64,000 nt of DNA, from NCBI GenBank assembly GCA_013306675.1, contig JABLUY010000087.1:62001-126000 (forward strand), read 5' to 3'. Made by a program: the position numbers and the translations under genes. The stretch's first letter is position 1. The number at the start of each line of letters is the position of its first letter. This DNA is from Thraustochytrium sp. TN22 (lineage: Eukaryota > Sar > Bigyra > Thraustochytrida > Thraustochytriidae). The notes under the pieces are model-generated. The model was not told the origin of the DNA. It saw nothing but the letters and a program-made list of their open reading frames with translations, and made no database searches. Below are positions 1-18,259 of this stretch, one piece after another.

Positions 1-170
1 CCGCCCCCAGCGGCACCGACCGCATCGTGCGCAGCGCCGCCACGTACGCCTGACGCTGCGCCTCCGTCAGCGACCGCACCTCGCGCCGCACACGCCGCGC
101 CGCCATCCCGCCCGCGCCAGCATCGCCCAGCCGCAGCCCGCCGCGCGTTGCCGCTCTGCTCGTCCAAGTC
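1..170 (-). pseudogene. Tyrosinase-like fragment, copy 1 (runs off the window)
   Basis: Read on the minus strand, this stretch encodes the start of a tyrosinase-type copper-oxidase domain, with an 'REVRSLTEAQRQAY' segment like the 'R.E.RSLT..ER..' start of that family. It is nearly identical to 12266-12435, where more of the same fragment can be read. Only the leading part lies in the window; the rest is beyond the left edge, so whether this copy is whole cannot be told here. It sits downstream of DUF262 gene A exactly as the second fragment sits downstream of gene B. I call it a pseudogene because the better-visible second copy is degraded. Confidence 0.5.
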
Positions 171-3100
171 ACGCCAACGCGTTGCATACAACCACAAGCG
201 CCCGGACCACTGGCAGGACCTGGACGACGAGCTGGACGTGGAGAACCAAGACGAGGACGAAGACGAGACGATGAACAGGGCGGGGAGGAAGACAACGGGA
301 TCAGCCGAGATGGCGGAGACGCTGGTCTCTGACTGTATGGGAGAAGAGGACGATTGCAGAGCGAGCAGACGGCCGTCTCGTACTGCTCGTCGCTGTCAAA
401 GATGTTCGTGTGTTGTCGAGAAGAGATGAAGCCAAGCCTTGCACGGAAGTGCGCGCCTCGGGGGGTGGAACCTCCTTGTGTAAAAGAGAGATTAGCTCTG
501 GCGTTCACGAGCTGTAAGATGGTTTACTTTTTGGTCATTCGTTTACCAGGTTTGCTGAAAGGCCTCGTTCCAGCACCTTCATCGTATGCATGCTGCTTGT
601 AAAGCTCAGAGAACTTCTCGGAGAGAGCCTTCTGCATGCGTTTGAGCTGGAATAGCGCTGGAGCTCCCGTCCCCATTTTGGGCATTTCTTGGCCCGCGGC
701 GCTGTAAGCCTCTATCGTTGCGTCGCGGAGATCAGCGTTGGTCTTCGAGGGTCTAAAGCCATGAAGCTGGACCGTGAACGACCCTTTTTCATCGACGTGG
801 AGGTAGAGAGTTCGATCTTCTGGGTCCGAAGTGGAAGCGCAGTAACCCGACAGAATGACGTAGTTGGGCGGGGTCCCATGCTTCTTCTTGTACGTGACTG
901 GCGTCTCCTTGTCGCCCCAGTCGTAGACCTTGAGTTGGCCGCTCTCGTGCTCAGGATGGCCATTGGCCCAGGAAGGCGCTGAGAAAGTGTGCGGGGTTGG
1001 CGCAGGCTGTGGAGGCGAGGGCGCCGAGCGCTCTATGCCCCCTTCCTTACGGATCTCTTTTCTTGACTGCTGAGTAGGAGACGAGCTGCTTCTTTCTAAA
1101 AACGCGGAGCTTGTGCTCGAACCTGTTCCAGGAGTGACCGCGCCGGCGCCAGAGGCATGAATGCCTGACGCGTGGCCGCCAACAGGAGGTGCAGGAAGCG
1201 CAGAGCGTGAGCTTGAGCTTGAACTTGAGTCGAGCAAGCACTCGTCCAGGACGTCTTCCGTGCCGTCGTCATGCTGATTCTGGTTTTCAGATGAGCCGGC
1301 CCGATGTGCTGTACGCCGACGCTTTCCCGCAGCTTCTGTGAGGCTCTCGCTCTTGATCTTGCGCTTCGAGGACTCCTTCCTTTTCTCCTCTTTGTCCTTC
1401 CTGTCCTCCTCCTTGACCTTCATGACCTTTCGCAGCGCGTCTTGGACCTCACTGCGACCATAGACGAGCGCCTCCGCGCACTTGTCTTCATCACCGAAAT
1501 GCAGTGCTACCTCAGCCACCACCTTCATCATCCCCTCGGACACGAGAGCACCAAGGACGGCGCGCCCCGCCTTCTGCGCTGACTCGAAGCTCTCTTGCTT
1601 CTCAGCGCCGAATCGTGTGATCTTGATGAGGCGCGGCTCAGACGGTGTGCTTTCGAGTCTGATTGTGAATGAGACGTTGGGCGCGACCTCGAACTCCGCA
1701 GAGAACCCCGTCGGGAAGATGGGTCCTGACGACGGCATCGTAGAAGGCAGCAACCCGATTGACGTCACCTTCCACACCCCGAGCCGAGGGTCGTCTCCGA
1801 AGAGCGCCTCCTCTCGGCACTTCTTTGGGTATTTCTCCTTGAAGTACTTCCGGGTCATGCGGAAGGCGTCCATGTCGCCGGCCCGGGCTCGGTCCACCAG
1901 GGTCAGAATGCAGAAGCTGATGTAGCTCGTCTCGGGTTCGTCCGAAACGGGGAGTGTGTGAAGCATCGCCGCGAACTCACTCCTGCAGATTGCATCCGAT
2001 ATGCTCTCAACGCCGTGCTGTTCCTCGAGGTCGACCATGCCAGTGTAGAAGAGCGCCTCGTCCCATGGCCCGGTCGCCTTTCGCTGGTAGATGCCGGCAC
2101 CATCGAGAATGTGAATGCCAGGAACCAGGTCGCGGTAGCACTCTATGAGATCTGGCCGCAAGTATTTGAGACCGTCCTCGACGTGGTACTTGTCGAACAC
2201 CTTCCTGAGCGTCGACTCGAGTTTGGTGCGCACGTCATTGCCAATTTCCAGGTCCTGAGCAAAGAGCTCGCGTAGGCCCTGACCATTGAGGTCCTTTTCC
2301 GTCTCGAACTTGTACGGCGCATGCAGCCGCAGGGCCCGCGCGAGAGCCGAGACCTGCTCCACGAAGAGCTCACGGCCCTCTTCGACCCCCCATGCTTGCA
2401 GACCTTCCTTGTACACTTGCTGCTTGGCAAAGTAGTGCATGCCAGAGTGCTGATTCAAGGCGTCCTTGTGGTCCGTGGTGATGGCCGAGTACTTCTCTTT
2501 GAAGGGCTTGGCGCCAACGTCCTTCTTGACTGAGGTAGAGAGCAGGTAGATGTTGCCGAGCCCGTCTGGTGCAGGGCTGGACGTCTCCTTCCGCATAGAA
2601 CGCGGGTTCGCGTGCTCCAGCTCCATCGGCTCCTTCCAGCGACCAGAGCGGAGTCCACGCACCAAGTCTGGCGTCGACTCGACGTTGGCAACGCGGAGAA
2701 GGTAGGTCAGCGCTTGGCGCTCGCCAGACTTGAGCTTGGCATACAAGTCAGGACGCGAGAGGCTGGCGAGGAGCGCTGCGCGATCATCGACGGAAACTCC
2801 GAAGTGATTGCGGACGAGCTCGAGTAAGCTCGCTAGCGTTGCCAGGCCCTGCTTTCCCTTCGCAACGTTTCTGAGAGCGGCCAAGAACTTGTGCGCGGCA
2901 ATGTGAAAGTCCAGCTCGGTCCACGGAGTCCGTGCGAGCAGCTTCGCGATGCAGAAGCGCTCGATGAAGCGGGTCAGAGCAGCACAGCAGCCTTGCTGGA
3001 CTGCTGATACTGGCAGACCATTCACGATCTTCCACAGCGTCACGAGCACGCCGTCGAAATGCTGCGTAAACACCCGCATGCAAGTCATGCGTGTGAGCAC

Positions 3101-4500
3101 GGCCCTGTGCTCGTTGCTGTCTTGGTTCTCCGGCCAGTGAAAACGGCGGTCATCTGGCATCCTGATGAAAGCAAGATGTTCCAGGCTGCTGCAAATATCC
3201 TCGATCAGGCTGGGGATCACGACGTTGATGGCGTTCCTGCCTCTGGCGTAGAGGCGGCCCATGATGTAGGCCTCGAGAGCTTGCATGGGCTCGACTTCAT
3301 CACGATACGCACGTACGCCTGCCTGGTCCGCTCGTACAACCAGGGCCGCTTGGATTGCGGTGTTCATGAGCGTGATCCGCACCTCCCGAGAAAGGTTTCT
3401 CAGGACCTTGCGAGCCTTGCGAAACGCTTCGGCTGTCCTCTTGCGGACCTCCCATGGCATTGCTTCTTTGCGATCCTTCAGGAGATTGACGATCAAAGTC
3501 CGCAGCTTGTCCTCGGGAGTGATCTCCGATGAACGAAATGCATGGGCTTGCCGGAAGAAGTCCAGTGCACACGTCCGGTCGTCGTTCAGTGTCAGGTTGA
3601 CCAGCACCTTCGAGCAGAGACCGTCCAAGACAAAGTCAGCGAGCTGCTCGTGGAAGTCCAACGGGTCCCTCGTCCCATGCAGAACCACTGCGTAGTTGCC
3701 CGTTGCCTTCTCGTAGATCGCGCGTACGAGCGCCTCGAGGTTCTCGAACAGGCTTCGACAGCTGTCGTGAGCAGCGTCAGCGCCTACAACGCTGCCGGCC
3801 CCCCTCTTCTTCACCGCCTCCCAGATATCCTGAGGACGCAGCCTGCCCCATACCTGATGAAGAAGATCCACGACGTCTGGTCCATCCTGGTCTGCGCCCT
3901 TCAACTCGATCCCGTCGCCATAGCTCTTCCGAAAAAGCCCCTGGCAGAGACTCTCCAGCACGTCAACTGCGTTCTCGTTGTCCAGGGACTCCCACTTCAA
4001 GCGGGAAGGGCTTCTCCATTCGTTCTGTAGGTCGGCAAAATCCGGAAACGGAGAAGTCGCCACAGAGGTTGGCACAGAGAGGATCTGCCGAAGAGCGCGG
4101 AAAGCCTCCTTCACCTTCGGGGTGTTGTAGGTGGACGAGTCCTTCACGATTCCGGCAAAGAAGATGCAGATGGCGTGACAGAGGAGGAAGAAGGTCATGA
4201 GGCGCTGCTGGCCATCGAAGAGTTCAAGCGTCTCGTCGCGTCGAATGTCATTTGCCTCATCGCGATAGCACTCGAAGGTCCCGAGACGATACCACCGGGA
4301 GCTCGACAACGGAGCATGCTCATGGAGCTCGTCCCAAAGCACCGTGAAGAACGCTTTGGCACTTGCGGCGCTCCACTCGTAGGGCCGCTGCTCCTCCGGA
4401 ATGCAAAAGAGCCGACATTTGTATGCAGCGCCGACCCCTTTGCGCTCAACACCGCAAAGCTCCAGGATATCAATCAGTTCGGAACTCGGTCGATTTTGGC
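1..4500. repeat. Segmental duplication, copy 1
   Basis: This block is closely similar to 12266-17290 in the same orientation: tyrosinase fragment, spacer, then the DUF262/DUF1524 gene read on the minus strand. Similarity is high at both the 3' flank (for example around 395-437 and 12647-12695) and the coding level. It stops near the sequence encoding 'IDILELCGVE', which is where gene B begins; gene A continues beyond into an LRR region that B lacks. Differences include trinucleotide expansions present only in the second copy. Confidence 0.85.
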
Positions 4501-5374
4501 GGTGCCATCTTCCCGAGTCTGCCCTTGGGCGCGCATGAAAGTGGGCTATGACTTCCCCCATCTTGCGCGTTTCATCGGCGCGTGTTGGCCGCGAAGCCTT
4601 CGCCATGGTCGAACCCTCACCGCGCTTGCCGGCTGTGCGAACCGGCTGGACTGAATCCGCAGTGAGCGGGGCTGCAGTTGGGCTCCAGCGCTGCAGCTCG
4701 TCCTCGGTGAAGCCGTTTCTTTCAAGTCCGACGACTCGAAGTGGCGGCGAGCGATTCACCAAACGGCTGACCAGGTTCGCGACATCGGCCTTGGCGAGAT
4801 CGCAGTCCGACAGGTCAACCTCCGTCAATGATTTGTTCTGGAGCACGGCAGAGAGTAACAGTCTCCATGCAGCCGGTGCGGAAGGTAACCGATTGTTGGC
4901 CAGCACAAGCTGCTGAAGCTTCGTTTTCTTGTGCAGGAGTCCACCGGCAAGCCAGCGCAGGCCCTCGACGTCGTCGATGCTCGCGGTCAGGTCGAGTTTC
5001 TTGACCGTCCCGAAGGTCAGCGCCTTGGCCGTGAACATGAGCCCGAGGTCGCTCAGGCGCAGCCCTCCCAGCATGAGCGATTCGAGCTGGCAGTCTTCGA
5101 CCCCGGTGGCAGCCAACAAGGTCCTCACGTCCTCATCCTCAAGGTCGCCCAGCTCTCGCGCGTCCAGCTCTTTGGACCTGGCCAGCACGCGCGACATGAG
5201 GTCACGCAATTCGCGCATCTGGCCTTCGCGGAGGTTCGTCGTCTGCCGCGCGATCACCAGCTTCAGAGCCAGCCTCTCCGGGGGCTCGCGCGTCAGCGCC
5301 ATAAAGTCCGCCTCATCCAACTTGGGGGCCTTGGTCTCGTCCGCCGACTTGGCGGCCTTGGTCTCGTCCGCCAT
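524..5374 (-). CDS. LRR-DUF262-DUF1524 protein, GmrSD/BrxU-like (paralogue A)
   Basis: Single-exon gene for 1616 residues. Residues about 90-240 are leucine-rich repeats (motifs such as 'LQQLVLANNRLPS' and 'LTEVDLSDCDL'). A DUF262 domain follows: 'IPEEQRPYEWS' near residue 325 and 'FDGQQRLMTFFLL' near 385, the ParB/GmrS-type motif. Around residue 916 is 'ELEHANPRS' followed by 'LGNIYLLS' and 'KPFKEK', matching the DUF1524 HNH-type nuclease (EH..P, GNL.LLS, pF.eK). DUF262 to DUF1524 spans roughly 650 residues, as in bacterial GmrSD, BrxU and SspE. After this come a conserved region, a Lys/Arg-rich nuclear-localisation-like stretch, a Ser-rich linker and a conserved C-terminal segment shared with gene B. 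The Asn of the DUF1524 'SVN' position is Lys here. An internal Met (ATG at 4606, residue 257) could be the older start before the LRR part was joined. A role in cutting or sensing modified DNA is inference. Confidence 0.8.
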   Translation of the reverse strand: MADETKAAKSADETKAPKLDEADFMALTREPPERLALKLVIARQTTNLREGQMRELRDLMSRVLARSKELDARELGDLEDEDVRTLLAATGVEDCQLESLMLGGLRLSDLGLMFTAKALTFGTVKKLDLTASIDDVEGLRWLAGGLLHKKTKLQQLVLANNRLPSAPAAWRLLLSAVLQNKSLTEVDLSDCDLAKADVANLVSRLVNRSPPLRVVGLERNGFTEDELQRWSPTAAPLTADSVQPVRTAGKRGEGSTMAKASRPTRADETRKMGEVIAHFHARPRADSGRWHRQNRPSSELIDILELCGVERKGVGAAYKCRLFCIPEEQRPYEWSAASAKAFFTVLWDELHEHAPLSSSRWYRLGTFECYRDEANDIRRDETLELFDGQQRLMTFFLLCHAICIFFAGIVKDSSTYNTPKVKEAFRALRQILSVPTSVATSPFPDFADLQNEWRSPSRLKWESLDNENAVDVLESLCQGLFRKSYGDGIELKGADQDGPDVVDLLHQVWGRLRPQDIWEAVKKRGAGSVVGADAAHDSCRSLFENLEALVRAIYEKATGNYAVVLHGTRDPLDFHEQLADFVLDGLCSKVLVNLTLNDDRTCALDFFRQAHAFRSSEITPEDKLRTLIVNLLKDRKEAMPWEVRKRTAEAFRKARKVLRNLSREVRITLMNTAIQAALVVRADQAGVRAYRDEVEPMQALEAYIMGRLYARGRNAINVVIPSLIEDICSSLEHLAFIRMPDDRRFHWPENQDSNEHRAVLTRMTCMRVFTQHFDGVLVTLWKIVNGLPVSAVQQGCCAALTRFIERFCIAKLLARTPWTELDFHIAAHKFLAALRNVAKGKQGLATLASLLELVRNHFGVSVDDRAALLASLSRPDLYAKLKSGERQALTYLLRVANVESTPDLVRGLRSGRWKEPMELEHANPRSMRKETSSPAPDGLGNIYLLSTSVKKDVGAKPFKEKYSAITTDHKDALNQHSGMHYFAKQQVYKEGLQAWGVEEGRELFVEQVSALARALRLHAPYKFETEKDLNGQGLRELFAQDLEIGNDVRTKLESTLRKVFDKYHVEDGLKYLRPDLIECYRDLVPGIHILDGAGIYQRKATGPWDEALFYTGMVDLEEQHGVESISDAICRSEFAAMLHTLPVSDEPETSYISFCILTLVDRARAGDMDAFRMTRKYFKEKYPKKCREEALFGDDPRLGVWKVTSIGLLPSTMPSSGPIFPTGFSAEFEVAPNVSFTIRLESTPSEPRLIKITRFGAEKQESFESAQKAGRAVLGALVSEGMMKVVAEVALHFGDEDKCAEALVYGRSEVQDALRKVMKVKEEDRKDKEEKRKESSKRKIKSESLTEAAGKRRRTAHRAGSSENQNQHDDGTEDVLDECLLDSSSSSSSRSALPAPPVGGHASGIHASGAGAVTPGTGSSTSSAFLERSSSSPTQQSRKEIRKEGGIERSAPSPPQPAPTPHTFSAPSWANGHPEHESGQLKVYDWGDKETPVTYKKKHGTPPNYVILSGYCASTSDPEDRTLYLHVDEKGSFTVQLHGFRPSKTNADLRDATIEAYSAAGQEMPKMGTGAPALFQLKRMQKALSEKFSELYKQHAYDEGAGTRPFSKPGKRMTKK

Positions 5375-5999
5375 GGCGCGTCAGTCGCCGCGACCGTAGT
5401 CGCTCTTGCGCCGGGCGGCTCCTCTGCGGCAGGGTGGAAGGCGCCGAGACGCGCGCGGGAGCAGGTTCCTTGCGGCCTCCGCCGCTGCCGCCGCTTCAGC
5501 GCGCCGCAGCTGCTGCAGCTGCAGCTGCAGCGCGCTGCCGCTGCCGCCGCCTCGCGCGCTGCCACGCCGCGCGCGCTGCCACGCCGCGCGCCGCCGCCGC
5601 GCCGCGCCGCGCCACGACGATGTCGGTCTGGCGCCGGGCGAGGGCGCCTCGAGCCCGCCAGTCTCCCGAGTCCGAGGCCGCTGAGCTGAGCCTGGGTCGC
5701 CTGCTCATCAGCAGCGGTTGACTCGCCGGCCAGGCTGGCGCTGCAACCGGTCACCGTTACGTTACTGTGCCAGGATGGAGGCTGTCCTGTCAAAATATGT
5801 ATTATACGTGCCGGCCGGCCGCGGCGAAGCTCGCCGTCTATGCCGTGCATACCTCTGCTTGCGCGCGGGTGGCGCCGCGTGCGAGTGCGTGCGCGGCAAA
5901 GAGGGGGCGCGCTAGCGGCCGGTGCCGGTCGGTGCGGGGTGGTTTGGAGCTGCGCTTGTGCGCTCCTCAAGACTTGGGAGTCCCGCTGGAGGCGGCGGC
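5375..5999. promoter_or_regulatory. Upstream region of gene A
   Basis: This 625-base stretch precedes the start of gene A on the minus strand. It is very GC-rich, with CTGCAG-type repeats around 5505-5535 and runs of GCC/GCG near 5540-5620. The open frames here are GC-driven shadows with Ala/Arg-rich translations. No core-promoter motif stands out. Confidence 0.3.
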
Positions 6000-6420
6000 C
6001 GAGAGGCATCGACTGGGCTCATCATCGCGTTGGGGGGTGACTTCAACTACTCCGTGCGCGGGAGCTAGGACCTCTGGCCCTCGTCAAGGCGTATCAGGTG
6101 CTTCGCTACACCCCCCTCGCCACCTGGCGGTGTGACGTGTTCACCAAACTCAAACTCCGTCGCTGCAGCGGAAGGATCGTCAGAAGTTGGCGGGACCTGG
6201 ATTTGAACAAAAATGACGGTGCTCTCCTGGCCTCATATCACGCCCGACGTCCGGGCTCGCGCTTCCACCGGCTAGATGGGGGCGTGGAGCCCTATTGTTG
6301 TCGGTTTGGGCTTCTCGGAGCTCTCGACGGACGCGTCAGAGCCGACGACGGGAGCAGCGAAAAAGGGTCATCTTGCGGTCATCGGTGGACTCGCCGTGGG
6401 CCGCGAGGGTCGACAAATAC
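6000..6420 (+). mobile_element. LINE endonuclease (EEP) remnant
   Basis: Three signatures of the endonuclease/exonuclease/phosphatase domain of non-LTR retrotransposons appear in order on the plus strand: 'LIIALGGDFNY' near 6016-6042, 'RPGSRFHRLD' (for SR.DR) near 6250-6276, and 'KKGHLAVIG' (for SDHLAV) near 6361-6387. Their spacing, about 76 and then 30 residues, roughly suits the family. They lie in different frames, with a stop soon after GDFN, so the element is dead. No reverse-transcriptase motif (such as YADD) was found downstream, so only the endonuclease part survives. An EEP fragment of a cellular gene is a weaker alternative. Confidence 0.45.
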
Positions 6421-7655
6421 CTGCGGATCTCGCGGACCTGGATGTGAACGCTCAACAAGACCATGTAGCAGGCTCTAAACTGCACCAGGTGGCGCATACA
6501 CATCACCGGCCGGAGTGGTTCAGGAGCACCTCAGGACTCGGGCTCTCGCGTGGCCGTGAGAGCGCGTGGACGTCTAGGCTGTACAGCACGAGCTCTCAGG
6601 ACACTGACAAGGAGATTTGAGGCCCTAGGCGCTGTCTTGGAGGTCTCTCAAGCATCGAAAGAGCACGGGGGCCGCCCCCCTTATTATTGAGGTGGCGGGT
6701 GGCGGCGCGGTGTCCTGTGCACGATGGAGTCTGGCGCTGGCAGGGATGAGCGGCCCAAGAAAAAGGTGCGTGTTCTCGAAGTAGACCAGGAGGGCAAGGT
6801 CCGCACGCGCCGTCCGATGCCGATGTATGACCCCCATGCGGTATGTCTCTGCGAGCTGGTGGAGGCGTGGAGCCATGACCGAGGCGCCGGCACCTGAATA
6901 GATGTTGCGCAAATCATGTAATCAAGTCCGAGGATACATAGGCGTCAAGCAGGCAGGAAGATCATCCTTACTGGGCGGTTTTTTCCTGTGTTCCATTCGG
7001 GCGCTGAAACCCGGTACAGGGTCTCGGATCTTGAATGGGCATGCAGTGCCAGTGTCGCTCGCGGTTTCGTCCGAGCCCGAGTTGTTGCTTGGCGGCGAAG
7101 GCCTTGAGTTCATTGCCAGCGCTAGCCCACCACCGCTGGCAGCGCCACTGGCAATGCTTCGAAGAAATACGACTGCTGGCCGCGTCAAAGACCTGGACTC
7201 TTAGCCAGCGAAGGGCGGTGAAGCGAGCTCGGGAACGAGCCAAAGCTCGAGCCAATTTTGGCGGACCAGCGCAACTCGTCGAGGTCGAGACTACCGCGGC
7301 GAGAGCCCAGCCAGATCGTAGCCTTTGATTTGACGGCGACGGGCATGTCTTGTGCCTGCTGGTGACTGACTGATGGTATAGTCGAAACTTGGCTGGCAGC
7401 GATGTAGGCTGCCCGAGCAGAGTGACGAAAGGAGGGCGCTGAGGCGGCCCTGAAACTGTGAAGGTCTGTGCATCGTGCGCCGATGCGGAGACCATGAAAC
7501 CGAGCTCGTTCGAAAAGAAAGCCAAGTAGGCCCGCCAGCTTTGGTCCAAGTCAAGCGCTTAGGAGTACGCTGGGCGCTGATTTCTCATTTCCTCGTCTCC
7601 TTCCTTCCTCTTTCCGTCAAAAAGTAGTTTGGATCTTTACCTTCCGTGGTGGAAT
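6421..7655. other. Intergenic, no supported gene
   Basis: This interval lies between the LINE remnant and the 3' end of the orphan gene. It holds a 57-codon plus-strand frame at 6724-6897 (listed separately) and a 193-codon minus-strand frame at 6968-7549 whose translation I cannot relate to any family. It may be the decayed rest of the LINE, but nothing in it proves that. Confidence 0.3.
6724..6897 (+). CDS. Possible 57-residue basic/acidic small protein
   Basis: A short ATG-to-TGA frame with an even, protein-like composition. It contains 'RPKKKVRVLEV' near residue 10, which resembles a monopartite nuclear-localisation signal. There is no homologous copy elsewhere in the window and no family recognition. 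It may equally be chance or a piece of the neighbouring dead element. Confidence 0.15.
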   Translation: MESGAGRDERPKKKVRVLEVDQEGKVRTRRPMPMYDPHAVCLCELVEAWSHDRGAGT

Positions 7656-8852
7656 TTAGTTACCGGTACTCTGCTTGTAGATATTCACATTAGGGCCAAT
7701 GGAAAGAAATTTGCACAGGTGAAAGAAGTGTGACAGGAGCTCGAGTGAATAGCCGGATTTTTGGGAGACGAGACTGAGAATTTGCTCTAGTAGAGGAACG
7801 TTGTACCGGACCTTTCCCTCGACCGCCAAGCCCTTTGCCGTATCCCAATCACGATGCTTGGCGAGCCACTCACGGAGATTGTTGCAGACCCGGTGGTTAT
7901 CAGAGGGTGCCTCATTCCTCTGCCTCATCCGTTGCAGTCTCTGGATGCATTTGCAGATAGGAACGGGGTCTCTATTTTTTGTGCTTCTCGTGGATTTGGA
8001 CTCGATGTTTTCGCACTCAGACTCCCTGAAAGAGCTGTTTCCACCTTTGGGCTTATTGCATATCATGAGGCACATGAGTTGGCACAGCTGGACCTCCGAA
8101 GTGAGTCTCTCGCGAATCACCCTTTCCATGTTTGTTCTGAAGGCCAACTTTTCCTGATCTTGCAATTTGTCAGACATCCTGACGAGAATCTGTGGCGACC
8201 ATTTAAAGTTGACGCCAGCCTCTTCCCCCTGAGCCTCGCCTTGCGTGCGAAATTCGAGCGTCGTGTACACATCAGCCCACGCGAATTTGGTAGTTGGGTG
8301 AGTTTTGAAGGGCCCCTTCCGCCAGCTCTGGTACAAAGTCTCGGCCTTGAGCAGGAGGTCGCCCAGCTCATGAAGGTGGTTTTGAGGCACCTTTTCTGAG
8401 TCATCGTCAGTCATAGGCTCGGTGTAGCCGGGTGCGAGGACGGTCTTGAGCCCACGGAGGTAAGGCGCGATGAGCCCTTTCATCCTCTCCTTTTCTTTTT
8501 CGTCATAGTCGCGCAACAGCGATGAACCAAAGTCATCCACACGGGTATCCACGTTTGCGTTCCCATTGCTTTCAGTCGTCATGAGTCCTTGGTGATCCTC
8601 GGTTCGGGCCCTCCTGGTCACGGGTCGCGCATCGTTTGAGAACGTGTCCCGAGGATGCTTGCCGAGAGTGGGAGACCTCGACGAAGGAATGCCAGACTCA
8701 CTCAAAGGGGGAGGCGTCCCCAATGACTCAAACTCAAAGCCGTCAAGCATCTCGGGTGGAATGGGCTGAAGCTCCGTCGAAGTCTTCTCACCGGCAAACT
8801 CCGTCGGAGTCTGACCGAGAACATCTTGGTCGTTGGAGCTTGATGAGGCCAT
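7656..8852 (-). CDS. Orphan protein of unknown function, lower-GC gene
   Basis: A 398-residue protein is predicted from the ATG at 8852. The open frame extends upstream to 9044, but that part is Arg/Ala-rich and looks untranslated. The N-terminal 130 residues are Ser/Pro-rich and probably disordered, with a basic 'RPVTRRARTED' patch. From about residue 120 the protein looks helical and charged, and it contains a Cys/Lys-rich segment ('ICKCIQRLQRMRQRN') and a Leu-rich C-terminus ('LELLSHFFHLCKFL'). I do not recognise a family. By eye its GC content and codon use are clearly lower than those of the housekeeping genes to the right. It is present only in copy 1 of the duplicated block, between gene A and the dead Sfi1-like copies, so it is either an insertion or a survivor lost from copy 2. 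Confidence 0.55.
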   Translation of the reverse strand: MASSSSNDQDVLGQTPTEFAGEKTSTELQPIPPEMLDGFEFESLGTPPPLSESGIPSSRSPTLGKHPRDTFSNDARPVTRRARTEDHQGLMTTESNGNANVDTRVDDFGSSLLRDYDEKEKERMKGLIAPYLRGLKTVLAPGYTEPMTDDDSEKVPQNHLHELGDLLLKAETLYQSWRKGPFKTHPTTKFAWADVYTTLEFRTQGEAQGEEAGVNFKWSPQILVRMSDKLQDQEKLAFRTNMERVIRERLTSEVQLCQLMCLMICNKPKGGNSSFRESECENIESKSTRSTKNRDPVPICKCIQRLQRMRQRNEAPSDNHRVCNNLREWLAKHRDWDTAKGLAVEGKVRYNVPLLEQILSLVSQKSGYSLELLSHFFHLCKFLSIGPNVNIYKQSTGN

Positions 8853-9293
8853 GACTGCTGTGACCAGCTGCCGTTGTGACTTTGACGGCTTGCGATCAGG
8901 TTGCCGCCTCGCTGTCGGGCTTGGGTCGCAGGCAGCGCCGCGCGCCGAGCGACGCGGGGTCGCGCCCGACTCGGCGCGCAGACGCCCTCCGCTTCCTCGC
9001 CTCCGGGCTCGCGCTCCCGCACGCGTCACGGCGCGCTCGCACACGAGCGAGGGGCGAAATCTGATTTGATGCCGGCAGGCAGGCCGGTGCCAGCCTGTCA
9101 GGCAGTGAGACTATGATCAAGGCGGATCGTGCCACCGCGCCTCTGCAACGGCTCCAGGTACGGCGCTACCCCGGACCGGGCCCTAACATAGGGCCTAACA
9201 TGATCTTTCTGGGCCGCGTCTACGACTCCAACGTTACGTCGAGGGTTCCAGCCTGAGATGACTGTGAGTTACCTCTAGGCCTAGGCCTAGCTA
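8853..9293. other. Upstream region of the orphan gene
   Basis: GC-rich 5' flank of the gene ending at 8852. It includes a short direct repeat ('GGCCTAACAT' twice near 9186-9200) and a palindrome-rich patch of CTAG/AGGCCT units at about 9272-9302. No coding signal is seen. Confidence 0.3.
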
Positions 9294-10612
9294 CTAGCTA
9301 GCTTGAGTGCTTGGCGCCGGGCGGCCGGCGCTGGCGCCGACTGGACAAGGCGGCGCAGGATGACGTGAGACCCCACTTGCGGCGCTTCGTCTTCGGCAAC
9401 GTCCAGAAAGGTGATTCGGAATGGCGCGACGCGCTTGTCCATTTTGAGGCGTACGCGTCTGGCGGCAGAGAGGTGACAGTCTCGCGATCTTGGCGATGAA
9501 CTGCTGGCAACGCACGAGGCGCAGGCGCAGGTCCAAGGCATCCTGGTCACGCTGCACCTTGGCTTGCCTTGTCTTGCCACGATGCGTCTTGTCTTGTCTT
9601 GATCTCTGCTCCTTGTCGTCGTGCCTTGTGGTCGTGTCTGCGTTGGCGGTGCGGTAGGTGGCTTTGCTGAAGGTCATGGTTCTCGGCGTCCATGGTCTCG
9701 CTGTGCAGGTCGCCTCCTGTTGGTGCTCTTTGCCAGCGTTGGGCAGCGCCCCGGAGGCTTATGGCCTGTGCTTGCGCGCGGTGGCAGTATTCGAGGCGGT
9801 CGAGAGCCCAGGAGTGCTCGAGGCTGCGCAGCATATCGTATCGCTTCCTTGCGCCAAGACTGCGGCGCGGGCAAGGCGGTCACGGGCCGTGCGCAGGGCA
9901 TCGCTGAGGGCGCCAACGCGTAAGAGATCGCGTCAGACGGCAAAGCGGCGCTGGAGCGCGACGGAAGCGGTGGCTGGACGCGAACTTCGAGGGTCTCGAT
10001 CAAAATCGTCAGCGCGTCGGAGCACAGGTCATGATGAAGCGCTTTCAAACCTCTGACCTCGAGACCGCGGCGCGGCTCGAGTCTGCGCACGTGATGGTCA
10101 CGGCAAGCCAGAGCGCCGGGAGGCCGGCGCAGCGCCGCCATGCCACATTGCAAAGGCGTGCATGACGCGTCCGCCGCACAGCTGCCCAAGGTTCGGCGAA
10201 GGTGAACACAACGTAGCTCTCAGCCAACCCAGCAAGCTCAGCCTCGCCGGTCAAGACGAGGCGCTTCCAGAGAGCAGAGGCGCTTCCAAAGAGCAGACCC
10301 GTCGCACAGGTCCACCTCGGCGACGGTGTGCCTTGCGAATGCGCTCGATATGGCCGCGTTGCTGGCCGCGATGGTCTTCTTGAAGCGCGCACACGCGAGG
10401 TGTAAAGCGGATCAAGCTGCGAGCGCCGACCCTTGGCGCAGATTGCACACCACGACAAACTGTGTGCAGCAGTTGGTACTCAGCTCCTTGCCGGCTCGCT
10501 TCAATGCGGACGGCACGTCAATGGACGCGAACCGCATCTGGACCCTCTTGCAACGGCGAAGAAGTCTGCTCGGATCGTCACGGTGCCGCCCGGGTTCGAG
10601 TGGCGGCGCTTT
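9294..10612 (-). pseudogene. Decayed copy 1 of the Sfi1-like repeat gene
   Basis: Minus-strand translations match the C-terminal third of the intact gene at 18260-21301. For example, 9547-9834 reads 'MLRSLEHSWALDRLEYCHRA' where the intact gene has 'MLRSVEQSWALDRLADCYRA', and both share 'DAENHDLQQS'. Matches continue in other frames up to about 10520, covering several W-K-R-F repeats. The frame is broken several times and the whole FERM-like N-terminus is missing. It corresponds to roughly 18330-19400 of the intact gene. Confidence 0.8.
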
Positions 10613-11837
10613 TTAGCTGTCAAACATGACGATGTTCTTGTGTTGTTGAGAAGAGATGAAGCCAAGCGAGTGGCATCTGGTTCGACCAGCGCAAGAGGCG
10701 CGGGGGCGCTGCTCGGGCCGCGGGCGGAGGTCTCGTTGTCTTGCTGGGCCTTGTCGAGATGCGCCTTGTGCCGCAGCGTCGCCACCTTTGTCTGTTCTGC
10801 TTCTTGTCGCTCTGCCTTGGCGCTGCCAAAGGAGGCCTTGAGGCGGACGTGCTTCTTGGCGTCTGCTGGTCGTCAACTGTCGGGGGTGATTTGGCAGTAC
10901 CAGCGGTGGAAGGGTCGCGAATGCGTGTGACCTGTGCGTGCGCACGGTAGCAACGTGCAAGGCGGTCGAGAGCCCAGGACGCTGCGGAGCATGTCGTAGC
11001 GCTTCCAGCCAGTAAGCCTTCAGCGCAGAATGAGACGGACGTGAGCTGTGCGTAGGGCGTCACCGAGGGCACCAACGCGGGTCAGATCGCGCCAGATGGC
11101 AAGCTGCGCAGCCTGCGCTTGAGCGCGACGGAAGCGGTGCGCTGGACGCCGGCTCCGAGGGCGTCACTTGAGAACGCGAGCACGTAGGAGCACTGCGAAC
11201 ACTTGAGGTGGCGGGTCGAGATGGAGCGTTTTCAGGCCTCCAGACAGCGGTGCAGTACGAGTCTGGCACGTCTGAGGTCACCAAGGGCCAGAGTGTCGTG
11301 GGCCCTGCACAGCACCGCGACGCCACATCGCAAAGGCTTCGCGCACGGCGTGCTGCCACGCACTCGCTGCATAGGTGCCCAATCAATGTCTCCGCAAGGA
11401 CATCTACACCGTAGCTCTCCAGGCTACTTGGCGTCTTGGATCACGACGAAGCGCTTCCAGTGCGCAAGGTTGTCGCGCTGGCGCACCCCGGTGATGGCGG
11501 GCCATGCAGGCCACCTTGAAGGAAAGAAACAGCTCCAATGATGCGAGCGCCGAGTCCTGGCACAGAATGCGTAACACCAAAACAAACTGCGTGCAGCAGA
11601 TTGTGCTCCGCTGCACTGCTATGCGACCACATTTTGAAGGACGCGAACCCTATCTGGTGCAATTTGCAAACGCCAAAGACGTCTGCTTGGCTTGTCACGG
11701 TCCAGCAGCCTCGCCGAAATGCCTGGCCCTCGCAGGTGCATGTGCACCTAGGGCACGCACAAAAGCGCTTCGCGGAGGACGGTCAACGCGCTTGATCTGG
11801 CTGTTAATGCATCGCGCGCGCTGCGTGGCAGCGCTTG
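10613..11837 (-). pseudogene. Decayed copy 2 of the Sfi1-like repeat gene
   Basis: A second degraded copy lies in tandem with the first. On the minus strand, 'SWALDRLARCYRAHAQVTR' at about 10900-10990 matches the intact protein. The nucleotide stretches near 11430-11490 and 11530-11620 match the intact gene near 19090-19140 and 19250-19320. Its left end (10668-10740) matches 17760-17830, the 3' flank of the intact gene. At 10613-10670 it is joined to a scrap that matches the tyrosinase/DUF262 spacer (395-437, 12647-12695), so this is a chimeric junction. It has no FERM-like part and multiple frame breaks. Confidence 0.75.
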
Positions 11838-11839
11838 CA

Positions 11840-12560
11840 TCATGACGCCGGATGCTGCGCACGATATCTGGGCCTCTCGTGGCCAACGGCGAGCTCTCCA
11901 GAAATGGTGTCCAGACCTCCTTCGCCTTGCACATGCGTCAACCGTGAGTCGTGCTGACAGGCTGCCAGTAGGGCCGCAGCAGCGGCGCCGACTCCCGGTA
12001 TGTGAGCCATGCGAGCTGTGTCCCGGACGCGTGTGCTCGTGTGCCCGCCACCTTCAACAAGAGGCATCTCCAGCTTTCGTTGAGCGAGTCCTGCGCCAGC
12101 ACGGCCAGCAGCGCCGCCTCCACCTCGAGCAGCAGCGCGCCGTGGAAGGTCATCTGGTTCTCCACGCCGTGGCCCTGATCCGCGCGCGCGTACAGCGCCG
12201 CCGTCGCGTGCTTGAGCAGCACATACGCGTGCGACCGGTACGCCGCCCCATAGCGCGCGCGCCCCGCCCCCAGCGGCACCGACCGCAATGTGCGCAGCGC
12301 CACCACGTACGCCTGCCGCTGCGCCTCCGTCAGCGACCGCACCTCGCGCCGCACCCGCCGCGCCGCCATCCCGCCCGCGCCAGCATCGCCAAGCCGCAGC
12401 CCGCCGCGCGTTGCCGCTCTGCTCGTCCGAGTCACGCCAACGCGTTGCATACAACCACAAGCGCCCGGACCAGGACCTGGACGACGAGCTGGACGCGGAG
12501 AACCAAGACGAGGACAAAGACGAGACGAGGAAGAGGGCGGGGAGGAAGACAACGGGATCA
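11840..12560 (-). pseudogene. Tyrosinase-like fragment, copy 2
   Basis: The minus-strand frame 11938-12552 (204 codons) contains 'RREVRSLTEAQRQAYVVAL', 'YGAAYRSHAYVLLKHATAAL' and 'FHGALLLEVEAALLAV'. These follow the order of the N-terminal half of stramenopile and algal tyrosinase-like proteins (RSL..eR, Y...YRS..y....H, H..F...FE.ALQAV). The usual copper-ligand stretch (H-x-H near 'CDHWHD') is eroded to 'ADQGHGVEN', and the second copper site is absent. There is no signal peptide in frame. I therefore treat it as a truncated pseudogene. It is duplicated at the left edge of the window. Confidence 0.6.
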
Positions 12561-12788
12561 GCCGAGATGGCGGAGACGCTGGTCTCTGACTGTATGGGAG
12601 AAGGGGACGATTGCAAAGCGAGCAGACGGCCGTCTCGTACTGCTCGTCGCTGTCAAAGATGTTCGTGTGTTGTCGAGAAGAGATGAAGCCAAGCCTTGCA
12701 CGGAAATGCGCGCCTCGGGGGGTGGGACCTCCTTGTGGAAAAGAGATATTAGCTGCACAAGTCTGACGTTCACGAGCTGTAAGATGGT

Positions 12789-14186
12789 TTACTTTTTGGG
12801 CATTCGTTTACCAGGTTTGCTGAGAGGCCTCGTTCCAGCACTTTCATCGTATGCATGCTGCTTGTAAAGCTCAGAGAACTCCTTGGAGAGAGCCTTCTGC
12901 ATGCGTTTGAGCTCGAATAGCGCTGGAGCTCCCGTCCCCATTTGGGGCATTTCTTGACCCGCGGCGCTGTAAGCCTCTGTCGTTGCGTCGCGGAGATCAG
13001 CGTTGGTCTTCGAGGGTCTAAAGCCATGAAGCTGGACCGTGAAGGACCCATTTTCATCGACGTGGAGGTAGAGAGTTCGATCTTCTAGGTCCGAAGTGGA
13101 AGCGCAGTAACCCGACAGGATGACGTAGTTGCGCGGGGTCCCATGCTTCTTCTTGTACGTGACTGGCGTCTCCTTGTCGCCCCAGTCGTAGACCTTGAGT
13201 TGGCCGCTCTTGTGCACAGGATCGCCATTGGCCCAGGAAGGCGCCGAGAGAGTTTGCGGTGATGGCGGAGGCTGTGAAAGCGGATCCAAGGGATCTGCGT
13301 CCTCTTCCTCGCTGACGGGGTGTCTTGACTGCCGAGTACCGGACGAGCTACCCCCTGAGGCATCCGGTTCCGCTAAAATCGCGGAGCTTGAGCATGAGCC
13401 TGCTCCCGAGTTATCCTTTACCGCGCCAGGGTCGGTTGCTTGGACGCGCAGAGCTTGGCCGCCGGCTGGAGATGCAGGAAGCGCTGAGCTAGAGCTTGAA
13501 GTTGAAGTTGAGCCGAGGAAGTCCTTGTCGGTGAAGTCTGCATCGAAATCGGCGGTCACACCTTGCTGTTTCTGGTGTGGAGGGTGTGCTTGAGACGAGG
13601 TTTCTAGACGTTCCGTGCGCTGCCGCTTTTCCGCAGCTTCTGCGGAGCTCTTCCTTCCAGCCTTGCGCTTCGTTGACTTCTCCTCCTCCACCACCACCAC
13701 CTCCTCCTCCTCGTCGTCGTCGTCGTCCTTGTTGTCCTCGCCGTCGTCGTCGTCATCGTCATCCTTTTCCTCCTTTGCCTTTTCATTTATGACGTCTCGC
13801 AGTGCTTGCTGAACCTCAACCCGACCGTAAACGAGCACCTCCGCGCTCTTGTTCTCGCTGCTAAGGTACGGAATGACGCGAGCCCCCGTATGACCACCTT
13901 CGTCTCTCCCCGCTGCGATGGAGGATATGATGAAGCCTCCGGCTTCCAGCGCGGAGTTCTCTTGTTTACCTTGCTTGTCATCGCCGAGCTGCGTGATCTG
14001 GAATAGGGGTGACCCGTCTGAGTTGGTCTCGAGTCTGATTGCAAACACGAAGTTGGGCGCGACCTCAAATTCCGCAGAGAAACCTTTCGGAAAGACGAGT
14101 CCACTGGGAGACGATGAGATTGCAGACCCGTATGACGTCACCTTCCAGGGACCTAGCTCAGCGATCCCAGACAGTAGGTTGCCATC

Positions 14187-14244
<58 letters not shown>

Positions 14245-17200
14245 GGAAGCTGCTGCTGCTGGATCTGCTGCTGGTGTTGGTGCTGGTGCTGGTGTTGGTG
14301 CTCCTTCTGGAACTCCATGCGTTCCTGAGCGCTCGTGCCGTGCCCCCCAGCGCTGGCCTGCTGGTGTGGCGGCGGGCGGCTGCTGTGCTGAGGCTGTTGT
14401 TGCGGCTGCGGCTGCGGCTGCGGCGGTGCCGTCGAAGAGGCGCTGGAAGGCTCCTTTTGCTGCTCCTGCTGCTCCTGCTCCTGCTCTTCTTCTTCTTCTT
14501 CTTCTTCTTCTTCTTCTTCTTCTTCTTCTTCTTCTTCTTGTGTCTGCTGCTGGGGGTCGTCTCCCAAAGGTAGCGCCTCCTCTCGGCACTTCTTCGGATA
14601 CTTCTCCTTGAAGTACTTTCGGGTCATGCGAAAGGCGTCCATGTCGCCGGCCCGGGCACGGTCCACCAGCGTAAGAATGGTGTAGCTTGTCTCGGGTTCG
14701 TCCGAAACGGGGAGCGTGTGAAGCATTCCCGCAAACTCACTCCTGCAGACGGCATCCGATATGCTCTCGATGCCGTGCTGCTCCTCGAGGTCGACCATGC
14801 CAGTGCAGAAGAGTTTCTTGCCCCATGGTGCAGCCGCCTTTCGCTGGTAGACGCCGCCACCCTGAACGTCGCGGTAGTACAGGTCGCGGTAGTACTTAAA
14901 GAGATCTCGCCACAGGCATTTGAGACCGTCCTCGATGTGGTACTTGTCGAACACTTTCCTGAGCGTCGACTCGAGTTTGGTGCGAACGTCATTGCCCATT
15001 CCCAGGTCCTGAGCAAGGAGCTCGCGTACGCCCTGACCTGTGAGGTCCTTTGCCGTCTCGAACTTGTACGGCGCATGCAGCCGCAGGGCCCGTGCGAGAG
15101 CCGAGACCTGCTTCACGAAGAGCTCGCGGCCCTCTTCGACCCCCCATGCTTCCACACCTTCCTTGTACACTTGCTGCTTGGCAAAGTAGTGCATGCCAGA
15201 GTGCTGATTCAAGGCGTCCTTGTGGTTCGTGGTGACGACCGAGTACTTCTCTTTGAAGGGCTTGGCGCCGACGTTCCTGTTGACTGAGGTAGAGAGCAGG
15301 TAGATGTTGCCGAGCCCGTCCAGTGCAATGCTGGCTTTCGGTGCAGGGCTGTCCGTGCTAAGCTTCTTTCGCCCAGAACGTGGGTTCGCGTGCTCCAGCT
15401 CCATCGGTTCCTTCCAACGGCCAGAGGGCAATCCACACGCCAGGTCTGGCGTCGACTCGACGTTGGCAACGCGGAGAATGTAGGTCAGGGCTTGGCGCTC
15501 GCCAGACTTGAACTTGGCATACAAATCAGGACGCGAGAGGCTGGCGAGGAGCGCGGCGCGATCCTTGACGGAGATTCCGAAGTGATTGCGGACGAGCTCG
15601 AGTAAGCTCGCTAGCTTCGCCCGGCCCTCCTTCATCAAGTCCTGCTTTTTGCTCGCGACGCCTTTGAGAGCGCCCAAGAACTTGTGTGCGGCAATGTGAA
15701 AGTCCAGCTCGGTCCACGGAGTCCGTGCGAGCAGCTTCGCGATGCAGAAGCGCTCGATGAAGTGGGTCAGAGCAGCACAGCAGCAGTTCTTCTCAGAGCC
15801 TGCCTTGATCACTGATACTGGCAGACCCTTCACGATCTTCCACAGCGTCACGAGCACGCCGTCGAAATGCTGCGTAAAGACCCGCATGCAAGTCATGCGT
15901 GTGAGCACAGCCCTGTGCTCGTTGCCGTCTTGAATCTTCGGCCAGTGAAGACGGCTGTCATCTGGCATCCTGATGACCGCAAGATGTTCCAGGCTGCTGC
16001 ATATATCCTCGATCAGCTTGGGGATCACGACCGCGCGGGCGTTTCTTTCTTTTTTGTCATGACAGTGCATGATGTAGTCCTCGAGAGCTTGTATGGGTTC
16101 GACTTCATCACGATACGCGCGTACTCCTGCCTGGTCAGCTCGTACAACCAGGGCCGCTTGGATTGCGGTGTTCATGAGCGCAGTCCGCACCTCCCGAGAA
16201 AAGTTTCTCAGGACCTTGCGAGCCTCGCGAAACGCTTTGACTGTCCTCTTGCTGGCCTCGCTTTGCCCCGCTTCTTTGCGAACCTTCAGGAGGTTGATGA
16301 TAAACGTCCGCAGCTTGTCCTCGGGAGTGAACTCCAGTGAGCGGAATGCGTTGGCTTGCCGGAAGAAGTCCAGTGCACACGTCCGGTCGTCGTTCAGCGT
16401 CAGGTTGACCAGCACCTTCGAGCAGAGACCGGCCAAGACAAAGTCAGCGAGCTGCTCGTGGAAGCTCCCCACCTTTTCCCTCGTCCCCTCCAGAGCCACT
16501 GCGTAGTTGTTCGTTGCCTCCTCGTAGATTGCGCGCACAAGCGCCTCGAGGTTCTCGAACAGGCTCCGACAGCTGTCGTGAGCAGCGTCAGCGCCTACAA
16601 CGCTGCCACCCCCCCTCTTCTTCACCGCCTCCCAGATATCCTGAGGACGCAGCTCGCCCCATACCTGGTGAAGAAGATCCACGACATCTGGTCCATCCTC
16701 GTCCGCGTCCTTCGTCTCGCTCCCGTCGCCATTGCTCTTCCGAAAAAGCCCCTGACAGAGACTCCCCAGCACATCAACTGCGTTCTCGTTGTCGAGTGAC
16801 TCCCACTTGATGCGGGAAGAGCTTTTCCACTTCTTCTGTAGGATGGCAGAACCCAGATCCGGGAGGGTCGTCACAGAGAGGATCCGCCGAAGAGCGCGGA
16901 AAGCCTCCTTCACCTTCGGGGTGTTGTAGGTGGACGAGTCCTTCACGATTCCGGCGAAGAAGATGCAGATGGCGTGGCAGAGGAGGAAGAAGGTCATGAG
17001 GCGCTGCTGGCCGTCGAAGAGTTCAAGCTTCTCGTAGCCTTTGATGGCGTCTGCCTCATCGCGATAGCACTCGAAGGTCCCGAGACGATACCACCGAGGG
17101 CCCGACGACGGGGCACGTAGCTCGTCCCAAAGCACCTTGAAGAACGCTTTGGCACTTGCGGCACTCCACTCGTAGGGCCGCTGCTCCTCCGGAATGCAGA

Positions 17201-17300
17201 GGAGCCGAGCTTTGTGTGCAGCGCCGTCATCTTCGTTCTCAACACCGCAAAGCTCCAGGATATCGATCACTTCGCATGTCGGTCGCTTGTTGTCACTCAT
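12789..17300 (-). CDS. DUF262-DUF1524 protein, GmrSD/BrxU-like (paralogue B)
   Basis: A 1503-residue, single-exon protein from the ATG at 17300. The frame stays open up to 17474, but the extra 58 residues are Arg/Ala-rich and homology with gene A begins just inside the chosen start ('CEVIDILELCGVE'). DUF262 is N-terminal: 'IPEEQRPYEWS' near residue 34, 'FDGQQRLMTFFLL' near 92, and 'FRQANAFRSLEFTPEDKLR' matching the family's 'F..iN..G..L...D' stretch. DUF1524 shows 'ELEHANPRS' near residue 632 followed by 'LGNIYLLSTSVNRN' and 'KPFKEK', keeping the Asn that A has lost. Then come a Glu run of about 18, a Gln/His-rich region, a Gln run of about 18, a conserved region, an acidic/basic stretch with nuclear-signal character, and the C-terminal segment shared with A. 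No LRR part. Function in defence against modified or foreign DNA is inference. Confidence 0.8.
14190..14243 (+). repeat. (CTG)18 tract, CAG in the sense of gene B
   Basis: A pure run of about 18 CTG triplets on the plus strand encodes polyglutamine in gene B on the minus strand. Gene A has no equivalent run at the aligned position, so the expansion came after the duplication. Confidence 0.95.
14486..14540 (+). repeat. (TTC)n tract, GAA in the sense of gene B
   Basis: A pure run of about 18 TTC triplets encodes polyglutamate in gene B. It lies about 240 bases from the CTG run, and the stretch between encodes a Gln/His/Pro-rich region. Absent from gene A. Confidence 0.95.
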
Positions 17301-18259
17301 TGTGCGGGCGCTCCGGTGACGATGGTCGGCGACGGTCGGTCCCTTGCCCGCTCGCGCCCGCTCGCTTTCCACCACGTTCCGCACGTGACGCGCACGTCGC
17401 CGCAGCCGCCGCACGTGCGCCCGGCGCGCCCCCGGGCCCCAACGCGCCGCCGCGCCCGACCTCGCCCTGCACACAACCCGCGCACGCCTGCGCCGCCTGG
17501 CCTGGCGGGCGCTGCGATCGGCGTCTGCAGTGCCGCCGCCACGCGCGACGAGCTTCGCTGCTGCTCAGCAGAAAAGTCCGACCACAAGACCATGCAATGA
17601 TGTACACTGGTATCAAGTGGTTGTTCGTGTCTGCTGTAATCGGTACCAGTTACCAGTACCACTGGTGTGCGAGCTCACCAGGCGGTGATCGGTACCGTAC
17701 TTCCTTTACCACTGCTGGAGGTTCGCCGTGGCGGCGCTTGCCAAGTTATGTGTCGGGCGGCGGGAAGGCATCTCGTTCGAGTAGCGCGAGAGTCGCGGCG
17801 CGCTGCTCGAGGCGCGGGCGCAGGTCTCCTTGTCTTTGGGGTGCTTCCCCTTTGGCGGGGAATTGCGCGCGGCTGTCGCCTGCGCAGAGGGAGCTGAGCT
17901 CCGTCGAAGCCTCAGAGTGAGAGAGAGGAACCGAGATCTGAATCGAGGCCGCGGCGGCTCGCCCTGAAGGGGTGAACCCCCTGTCTGACCGAATGACTAC
18001 AACAGAAGGCAAGAACAAACAAAGGAAAAAGAGAGAGGAAGAGAGGGAGAGAGGGGGGCGCGTCCAGCCGCTCGCGCGCTGGCCGCCCTCCCTCTCCTGC
18101 TGCTGCGCGACCATTCCGTGCGCCACCTCCGACTCGGCACCACGCGGTTGCAGGTGCCAGCACCCCCGGCGGACAAACTCCGTTGCCTTTTGCGGGGCAA
18201 CTAGCCCTTTTATACACTGGCGCCTCGGTCACTCAGCGGCGTGTACATAAACGAGAGAA
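17301..18259. other. Spacer between gene B and the FERM/Sfi1-like gene
   Basis: This holds the 5' flank of gene B and the 3' flank of the intact repeat gene, both on the minus strand. It includes a short cluster of CAGTACCACTGG-like repeats around 17640-17710 and a purine-rich patch at 18005-18060. Positions 17760-17830 match the left end of decayed copy 2 (10668-10740). No independent gene is visible. Confidence 0.35.

Follow-up and report, generated by a model that had tools for sequence, protein, structure and literature searches.

GmrSD-type proteins combine a GmrS part (DUF262, PF03235), which is defined by the motifs QR, DGQQR and FxxxN, with a GmrD part (DUF1524, PF07510), which is defined by E/D-H-N-N (Machnicka et al. 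2015; PMC4619093). The closest described systems are the Type IV enzymes GmrSD and BrxU (PDB 7p9k, 7p9m), the phosphorothioate-sensing effector SspE of the Ssp defence system (PDB 7drr, 7drs, 6jiv) and DndI (PDB 9jfl). DndI and SspE respond to phosphorothioate DNA through a tyrosine beside the QR pair (Y25 and Y30, respectively; PMC11662687). GmrSD homologues have been published for eukaryotes before: three such organisms are mentioned, one homologue being from another stramenopile, and Thalassiosira oceanica is included in the alignment (PMC4619093). Here, we analyze two such proteins, P0001 and P0002, encoded in a 64,000-nucleotide stretch (the window) of Thraustochytrium sp. TN22 (contig JABLUY010000087.1, here C439, positions 62001-126000; the genome has 37.9 Mb in 453 contigs). 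Both carry C-terminal parts which, according to structure prediction, are FYR domains. The added domains that are named for the published eukaryotic homologues are DUF4268, DUF4357 and DNA_binding_1, not FYR (PMC4619093). No report of a GmrSD-FYR fusion was found in the literature searched, the scope of which excluded most subscription journals and the general protein databases.

The original prediction, made from the sequence alone, described a tandem pair of GmrSD/BrxU-like proteins that sense or cut modified or foreign DNA in the nucleus. The domain order, the fold, the eukaryotic host, the unusual length and a nuclear role agree with our analysis, but the view that both proteins are modification-dependent cutters is not supported in this form.

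The GmrSD-type core

P0001 is encoded on the minus strand by an uninterrupted frame (524..5374) of 1616 codons without a stop. The open frame of P0002 spans 12789-17474, also on the minus strand. Its first in-frame ATG is at 17300, exactly where the pair had been predicted to end, and gives a protein of 1503 residues (P0011; 12789..17300), again without a stop. The two are members of a thraustochytrid protein family with at least six members. A genome scan found six GmrSD-type loci on five contigs, the others being called C188, C266, C277 and C314; PF03235 was over the cut-off at five of the six and below it for C277.

For the two window proteins, PF03235 is clearly significant (E-values of 1.5e-10 and 2.7e-10). 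PF07510 is less clear: for P0002, the E-value is 0.006 (below cut-off), while in the genome scan it reached 23.1 bits, barely over the cut-off of 23. It is over the cut-off in C314, has an E-value of 0.028 in C266 and is not listed for P0001. By hidden Markov model (HMM), DUF262 is therefore significant in both proteins and DUF1524 is weak. All motifs that had been quoted for the pair are present (IPEEQRPYEW, DGQQR, ELEHANP, LGNIYLLS and PFKEKY). In P0002, the DUF262 region, a ParB/Srx-like NTPase/sensor, covers about residues 1-338 (16287..17300, minus strand, outer limits approximate), with IPEEQRPYEW at 17195, DGQQR at 17015 and FxxxN at 16350-16364. The HNH motif of its DUF1524 part (E636-H637, N665, N674 and PFKEK) is at 15246..15401 (minus strand).

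A structure was predicted for the P0002 core only (1180 residues), using an alignment to which 39 of 79 prokaryotic loci contributed. SspE, DndI and BrxU outrank all other PDB entries listed for this model. FYR entries are absent from this whole-core list, which is not evidence either way. Searching P0002 against PDB sequences with phmmer gave a best E-value of 0.17, mostly with matches to a Gln-rich stretch, and an NCBIfam scan had no match close to any cut-off. Pfam matches to Na_trans_assoc, TFIIA, Utp14 and CDC45 are below the cut-off, involve low-complexity sequence and were dismissed.

The six family members were aligned with 72 prokaryotic proteins. These had been fetched by similarity to C314 (the best 80 of at least 146 relatives, representing 79 distinct loci) and were restricted to frames of 480-800 residues with DGQQR, which removed L039, L042, L051, L063, L064, L072 and L094. 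In four rows (L071, L080, L099 and L111), the chosen DGQQR frame lacks the QR.Y.W motif and may belong to an adjacent DUF262 gene; L055 was given too late a start. There are 25 columns that are conserved in at least 90% of the prokaryotic rows. P0002 and C266 each keep 20 of these, C314 keeps 19, P0001 18, C277 16 and C188 13. At the remaining columns, only 17-20% of the family residues match the prokaryotic consensus (84 of 444, or 19%, for P0002), so the motif match of P0002 is not due to chance.

Judged by this alignment, nuclease competence seems preserved in three paralogues and lost in the other three. P0002, C266 and C314 have every residue of QR, DGQQR, FxxxN and E-H-N-N, the same set as in BrxU and GmrSD, despite an identity of just about 30% between C314 and P0002. 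They share some departures: Ser or Ala replaces the Gly after FxxxN, Phe replaces Trp, and Met replaces the Thr after DGQQR. P0001 keeps QR, DGQQR and the E-H pair of the HNH motif (2612..2617, minus strand). The last HNH Asn, present in 70 of the 72 prokaryotic rows, is replaced by Lys (2525..2527, minus strand), resulting in E-H-N-K, and the FxxxN Asn, present in all 72, is replaced by His (3542..3544, minus strand). This loss of one HNH and one DUF262 residue had gone unseen in the original prediction. In C188, the HNH set reads Q-Q-N-E, the FxxxN Asn is replaced by Ser, and QR has Ala in place of its Q. In C277, the HNH set reads E-P-N-L, the FxxxN Asn is replaced by Gly, DGQQR has become DGRQR, and QR has Glu in place of its R.

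The position next to QR is of special interest. We equate it with Y25 of DndI and Y30 of SspE based on our reading of the P-x-Y-Q motif. In the 72 prokaryotic rows, it is occupied by Tyr (52), Phe (16), Ile (2) or Val (1), with one gap. It is Glu in P0001, P0002, C188, C266 and C314, and Gly in C277. Because the exchange of an aromatic residue for Glu is shared and non-conservative, the mark that is recognised probably differs. This single residue suggests that the family senses something other than phosphorothioate, or nothing. SspE and DndI further differ from the family, which is eukaryotic and has FYR domains, and long linkers not found in SspE.

FYR domains and the LRR-like module

Extra conserved C-terminal parts had been pointed out in the original prediction, their identity being missed. 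According to structure modelling, they are FYR domains, with the fold of the chromatin proteins TBRG1 (PDB 2wzo) and KMT2 (PF05964/PF05965). The FYR fold was found in the predicted structure of the C188 paralogue and is ascribed to the family on this basis. The assignment relies on the fold match because sequence comparisons are weak or empty. Pfam FYRN is listed only for C188 (E-value of 0.0025, below cut-off). A profile-profile comparison with three FYRN proteins from the same genome gave a probability of 7.3 and an E-value of 0.0049, and no FYR entry was found when the FYR profile was compared with PDB sequences. In contrast to TBRG1 and KMT2, the family has domains of divergent sequence, which occur separately two or three times per protein and are attached to a nuclease core.

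In P0002, FYR domain 1 comprises residues 1050-1172 (13785..14153, minus strand), consistent with the strand/helix order of the model. It follows a low-complexity Glu/Gln-rich linker (about residues 917-1040; 14181..14552, minus strand), for which P0001 has no counterpart of this length. In P0001, FYR domain 1 comprises residues 1199-1318 (1421..1780, minus strand). In both proteins, it is directly followed by a basic cluster resembling a nuclear localization signal (KRQR at 13617..13628 in P0002; KRRR at 1313..1324 in P0001; both minus strand). A divergent FYR-like domain 2 starts at about residue 1366 in P0002 (12861..13205) and at about residue 1479 in P0001 (590..940), both on the minus strand and with an approximate low-coordinate limit; alignment and HMMs indicate that of P0002, HMMs that of P0001.

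An HMM of the repeats that was built without the window genes scores 41.9 and 6.8 bits in P0002, and 33.4 and 4.8 bits in P0001, the maximum of 300 shuffles being 4.3 bits. These scores place FYR1 of both proteins in the repeat domain of the family. The second repeats are near background with this model and clearer with an HMM of the terminal repeats of C188 and C277 (12.5 bits for P0002 and 10.1 bits for P0001; maximum of 300 shuffles 2.8 bits). With the latter model, the C266 repeats score 3.7, 1.5 and 1.4 bits, close to the shuffle maximum. The C314 repeats match over the first 40-55 positions only; they and the second P0001 repeat were omitted from the repeat alignment.

The identification of the conserved C-terminal parts as FYR domains makes the case for a nuclear role stronger than could be known originally, the location itself being deduced. 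The FYR parts are retained in the half of the family that has lost nuclease residues.

The C314 paralogue carries a 2343-bp block within its last FYR domain (C314:6042-8384, in locus L009), beyond which a FYRC-like remnant is visible by eye. A copy in opposite orientation, 99.5% identical, is found in C277 (about 37,460-39,802). The block has 10-base inverted ends (TATCCCAATC) and looks like a recently active DNA element.

P0001 has an N-terminal module that is absent from P0002 (residues 1-256; 4607..5374, minus strand). It resembles leucine-rich repeats (LRR_4, E-value of 0.0086, below cut-off). Its nearest relative in the genome is the N-terminal part of a protein encoded on C445 (108398-109075, locus L115; 42% identity over 224 residues), the later part of which is a ParA/MinD-type ATPase (AAA_31, 1.1e-14; CbiA, 2.5e-10). 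As DUF262 belongs to the ParB-like superfamily (PMC11662687), an LRR module common to a ParA-like ATPase and a DUF262 protein is a lead, no more.

Duplication, divergence and putative function

P0001 and P0002 are 79% identical over 941 aligned positions. Their genes arose by direct duplication, which includes the 3' flank (1..523 for one copy and 12264..12788 for the other; 499 of 517 aligned bases are the same, 96.5%). The copies are 12.3-12.8 kb apart with other DNA between them, so that "tandem" applies to the direct repeat but not to immediate adjacency. Two segments in between (9421-10470 and 10900-11502) are about 72% identical to parts of 18271-19314, the 3' part of the P0003 gene. These apparent P0003 remnants upstream of P0001 indicate that the duplication may once have included P0003.

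The coding regions are 84.5% identical (3410 of 4034 bases). Of the 23 indels in coding sequence, 20 have lengths divisible by three; the remaining ones are of 2, 2 and 8 bases, and the last two of these are 36 bases apart in opposite copies. Gaps in the first 30 bases were omitted from this count as the alignment starts somewhat upstream of the shared part. The synonymous divergence (dS) is mosaic: core segments have values of 0.09-0.38, FYR1 stands at about 0.9-1.1, and the 3' end has 0.04-0.07. This pattern suggests that the ends underwent gene conversion or that FYR1 was replaced. FYR1 is the most variable domain between the copies. The ratio of nonsynonymous to synonymous divergence (dN/dS) is about 0.58 between the copies and reaches about 1 in their last domain. 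For P0002 versus C266, the first 200 residues (DUF262) give a value of 0.18. With C266 as outgroup, P0001 has 12 and P0002 has 2 amino acid changes in these 200 residues. Faster evolution of P0001 throughout was rejected, because over 1177 codons the counts are 46 and 45. That two signature residues were lost on the P0001 branch is, taken alone, no surprise.

A phylogeny had been proposed as a check. With the 72 prokaryotic relatives, the six eukaryotic genes form a clade of their own, on one side of a branch with an SH-aLRT value of 100, the stem having a length of 1.75 changes per column. A single ancient acquisition with later duplication would fit this. The tree, a quick search with long branches, carries no transfer direction and is uninformative on the prokaryotic donor group.

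The anatomy is well supported: homology, fold, retention or loss of motifs, FYR domains, single-clade expansion and coding constraint. From it, we infer a nuclear location, enzymatic activity, a sensed mark, a heteromeric partnership and a defence role. The explanation which we favour, tentatively and at slightly less than even odds, is that the family consists of nuclear, chromatin-docked, NTP-dependent nicking nucleases and non-cutting partner paralogues, which attack foreign or wrongly marked DNA. Each protein would be built from a DUF262 NTPase/sensor with DGQQR, a helical linker, a DUF1524 HNH nickase, and two or three FYR domains. DUF262 would bind DNA and hydrolyse NTP, and a DNA feature sensed beside the QR motif would control the release of the HNH domain, which would then nick DNA as in SspE and DndI. 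The FYR domains probably tie the protein to chromatin or to chromatin-protein partners in the nucleus. P0002, C266 and C314 would be the nuclease-competent type. P0001, C188 and C277 are probably non-cutting partners, decoys or regulators, because nuclease and DUF262 residues are lost and FYR is kept; in P0001, the LRR may add a sensor or interaction domain. The likely role is a selective attack on foreign or wrongly marked nuclear DNA of a virus or transposon. A DNA virus like SmDNAV, a 236-kb dsDNA virus that infects a thraustochytrid (PMC8354545), is a conceivable target. We consider it doubtful that the idea extends to a full nuclear restriction-like immunity, in which FYR-docked GmrSD nickases with a Glu-retuned sensor pocket attack DNA that lacks a proper chromatin or base mark, catalytically dead paralogues (one of them LRR-bearing like a ParA-like ATPase) do the sensing or licensing, and FYR1 is a fast-evolving recognition part. 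Bacterial Type IV machinery that is linked to a domain of chromatin proteins, and that has multiplied within one protist into active-looking and inactive-looking paralogues, would be direct evidence of a DNA-cutting phage-defence enzyme rebuilt for the nucleus with its chromatin-packed self DNA. One could then test whether the self mark can come from chromatin context instead of DNA modification.

Several points weigh against the favoured explanation. The sensor aromatic is replaced by Glu, DUF1524 is weak by HMM, and even P0002 has changed 5 of 25 near-invariant columns, including the Gly after FxxxN and the Trp. Because the alignment used for modelling included prokaryotic GmrSD homologues, the fold match does not provide evidence separate from that of the sequence. 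FYR comparisons with Pfam, PDB and the three FYRN proteins are weak or empty; the paralogue modelled for FYR is C188, not a domain from the window, and all Foldseek rows for it have E-values above 0.001. The dN/dS of about 0.58 suggests relaxed constraint or diversification. Finally, none of the neighbours that were scanned with Pfam is recognisable as a defence gene, the clear matches being CatSper-beta, PqiA and Tubby.

That these neighbours are cellular genes agrees with a house-keeping function, a nuclear NTPase/nickase or scaffold for repair, recombination, replication or silencing, which we regard as quite possible. FYR belongs to chromatin regulators, and fragments of KMT2A/B join via FYRN/FYRC (PMC7762615). 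Purifying selection acts in DUF262 (P0002 versus C266), and half of the family lacks nuclease residues yet keeps the FYR parts. The fast mosaic divergence of the window copies and the lineage-specific duplication, however, more closely resemble genes in conflict. Defence is only modestly favoured over chromatin maintenance. It is improbable that we are looking at decay, with P0001 dead, P0002 a relic, and the frames persisting due to recent duplication in a GC-rich genome. The dN/dS values (near 0.6 for the core, about 1 for the last domain), the two signature losses and the early excess of changes in P0001 (12 versus 2), and the interruption of C314 by an inserted element would be expected in this case, but not the predominance of triplet indels, the 1616 and 1503 codons without a stop, or the intact E-H-N-N, DGQQR and FxxxN in the distant C314 as well as in P0002 and C266.

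A literal Type IV enzyme, with both copies cutting DNA that is glucosylated or modified in another way, as GmrSD and BrxU do, has the same domain order and fold on its side. We nevertheless consider it very unlikely, as P0001 lacks one HNH Asn and the FxxxN Asn, and the sensor residue is Glu in both proteins. The genome scan found only one C5-methylase locus, which looks Dnmt2-like by its motifs. Host cytosine methylation may therefore be low, and methylated foreign DNA could stand out from host DNA. The methylation status is, however, uncertain because DNMT6 is reported from other labyrinthulomycetes (PMC9998398). A search of the genome for Tet/JBP had no match; as the control likewise matched nowhere, this does not demonstrate absence. 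Bacterial contamination, or a viral or mobile-element gene within the contig, is largely excluded by the fusion architecture and was rejected. The homologues found outside the genome are prokaryotic, save one short phage match, and the collections searched hold no eukaryotes; but FYR and LRR-like parts are in the same frames, six loci are spread over five contigs, the neighbours, such as the CatSper-beta gene, are cellular, and no relative was confirmed when viral_contigs was scanned once with the P0002 core.

Neighbouring genes and further observations

A search of plasmids and phages by tblastn had short DUF262 matches only (27-41% identity; four plasmid records and one phage record). Two bacterial plasmids, from Vibrio (L029) and Klebsiella (L030), contain adjacent pairs with a shorter DUF262 gene before a longer one; these are annotated in L030 and were seen as frames in L029. 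By analogy, such pairs may parallel the active and inactive partners proposed for the thraustochytrid family.

Between the two GmrSD genes, a candidate coding frame of 462 residues (7656-9044, minus strand) has no Pfam match. About 4 kb from the P0002 gene, a homologue of CatSper-beta is encoded (21559-25362, plus strand; CATSPERB_C, E-value of 2.3e-37), a member of a sperm ion-channel subunit family in a protist. It is followed by a frame of 2471 residues (25582-32997, minus strand) with two stretches of PqiA (paraquat-inducible protein A), a bacterial membrane family, which are preceded by a very long N-terminal part. Further along are an uninterrupted frame of 7528 codons (38482-61068, plus strand) and a Tubby-like frame (61366-62541, minus strand; Tub, E-value of 4.1e-29).

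To the left of the window (locus L020, C439:42001-52000), there are three tandem frames of 454-528 residues, sulfatase-like by eye and 80-90% identical over about 1.3-1.5 kb. Elsewhere in the genome, C124 has fatty acid synthase frames in an arrangement that marks thraustochytrids, most likely the host group. There, a frame of 3044 residues matches the polyunsaturated fatty acid synthase model omega_3_PfaA with 2539.7 bits (cut-off 1010.1). It is adjoined on the opposite strand by a second, weaker-matching frame of 2083 residues.

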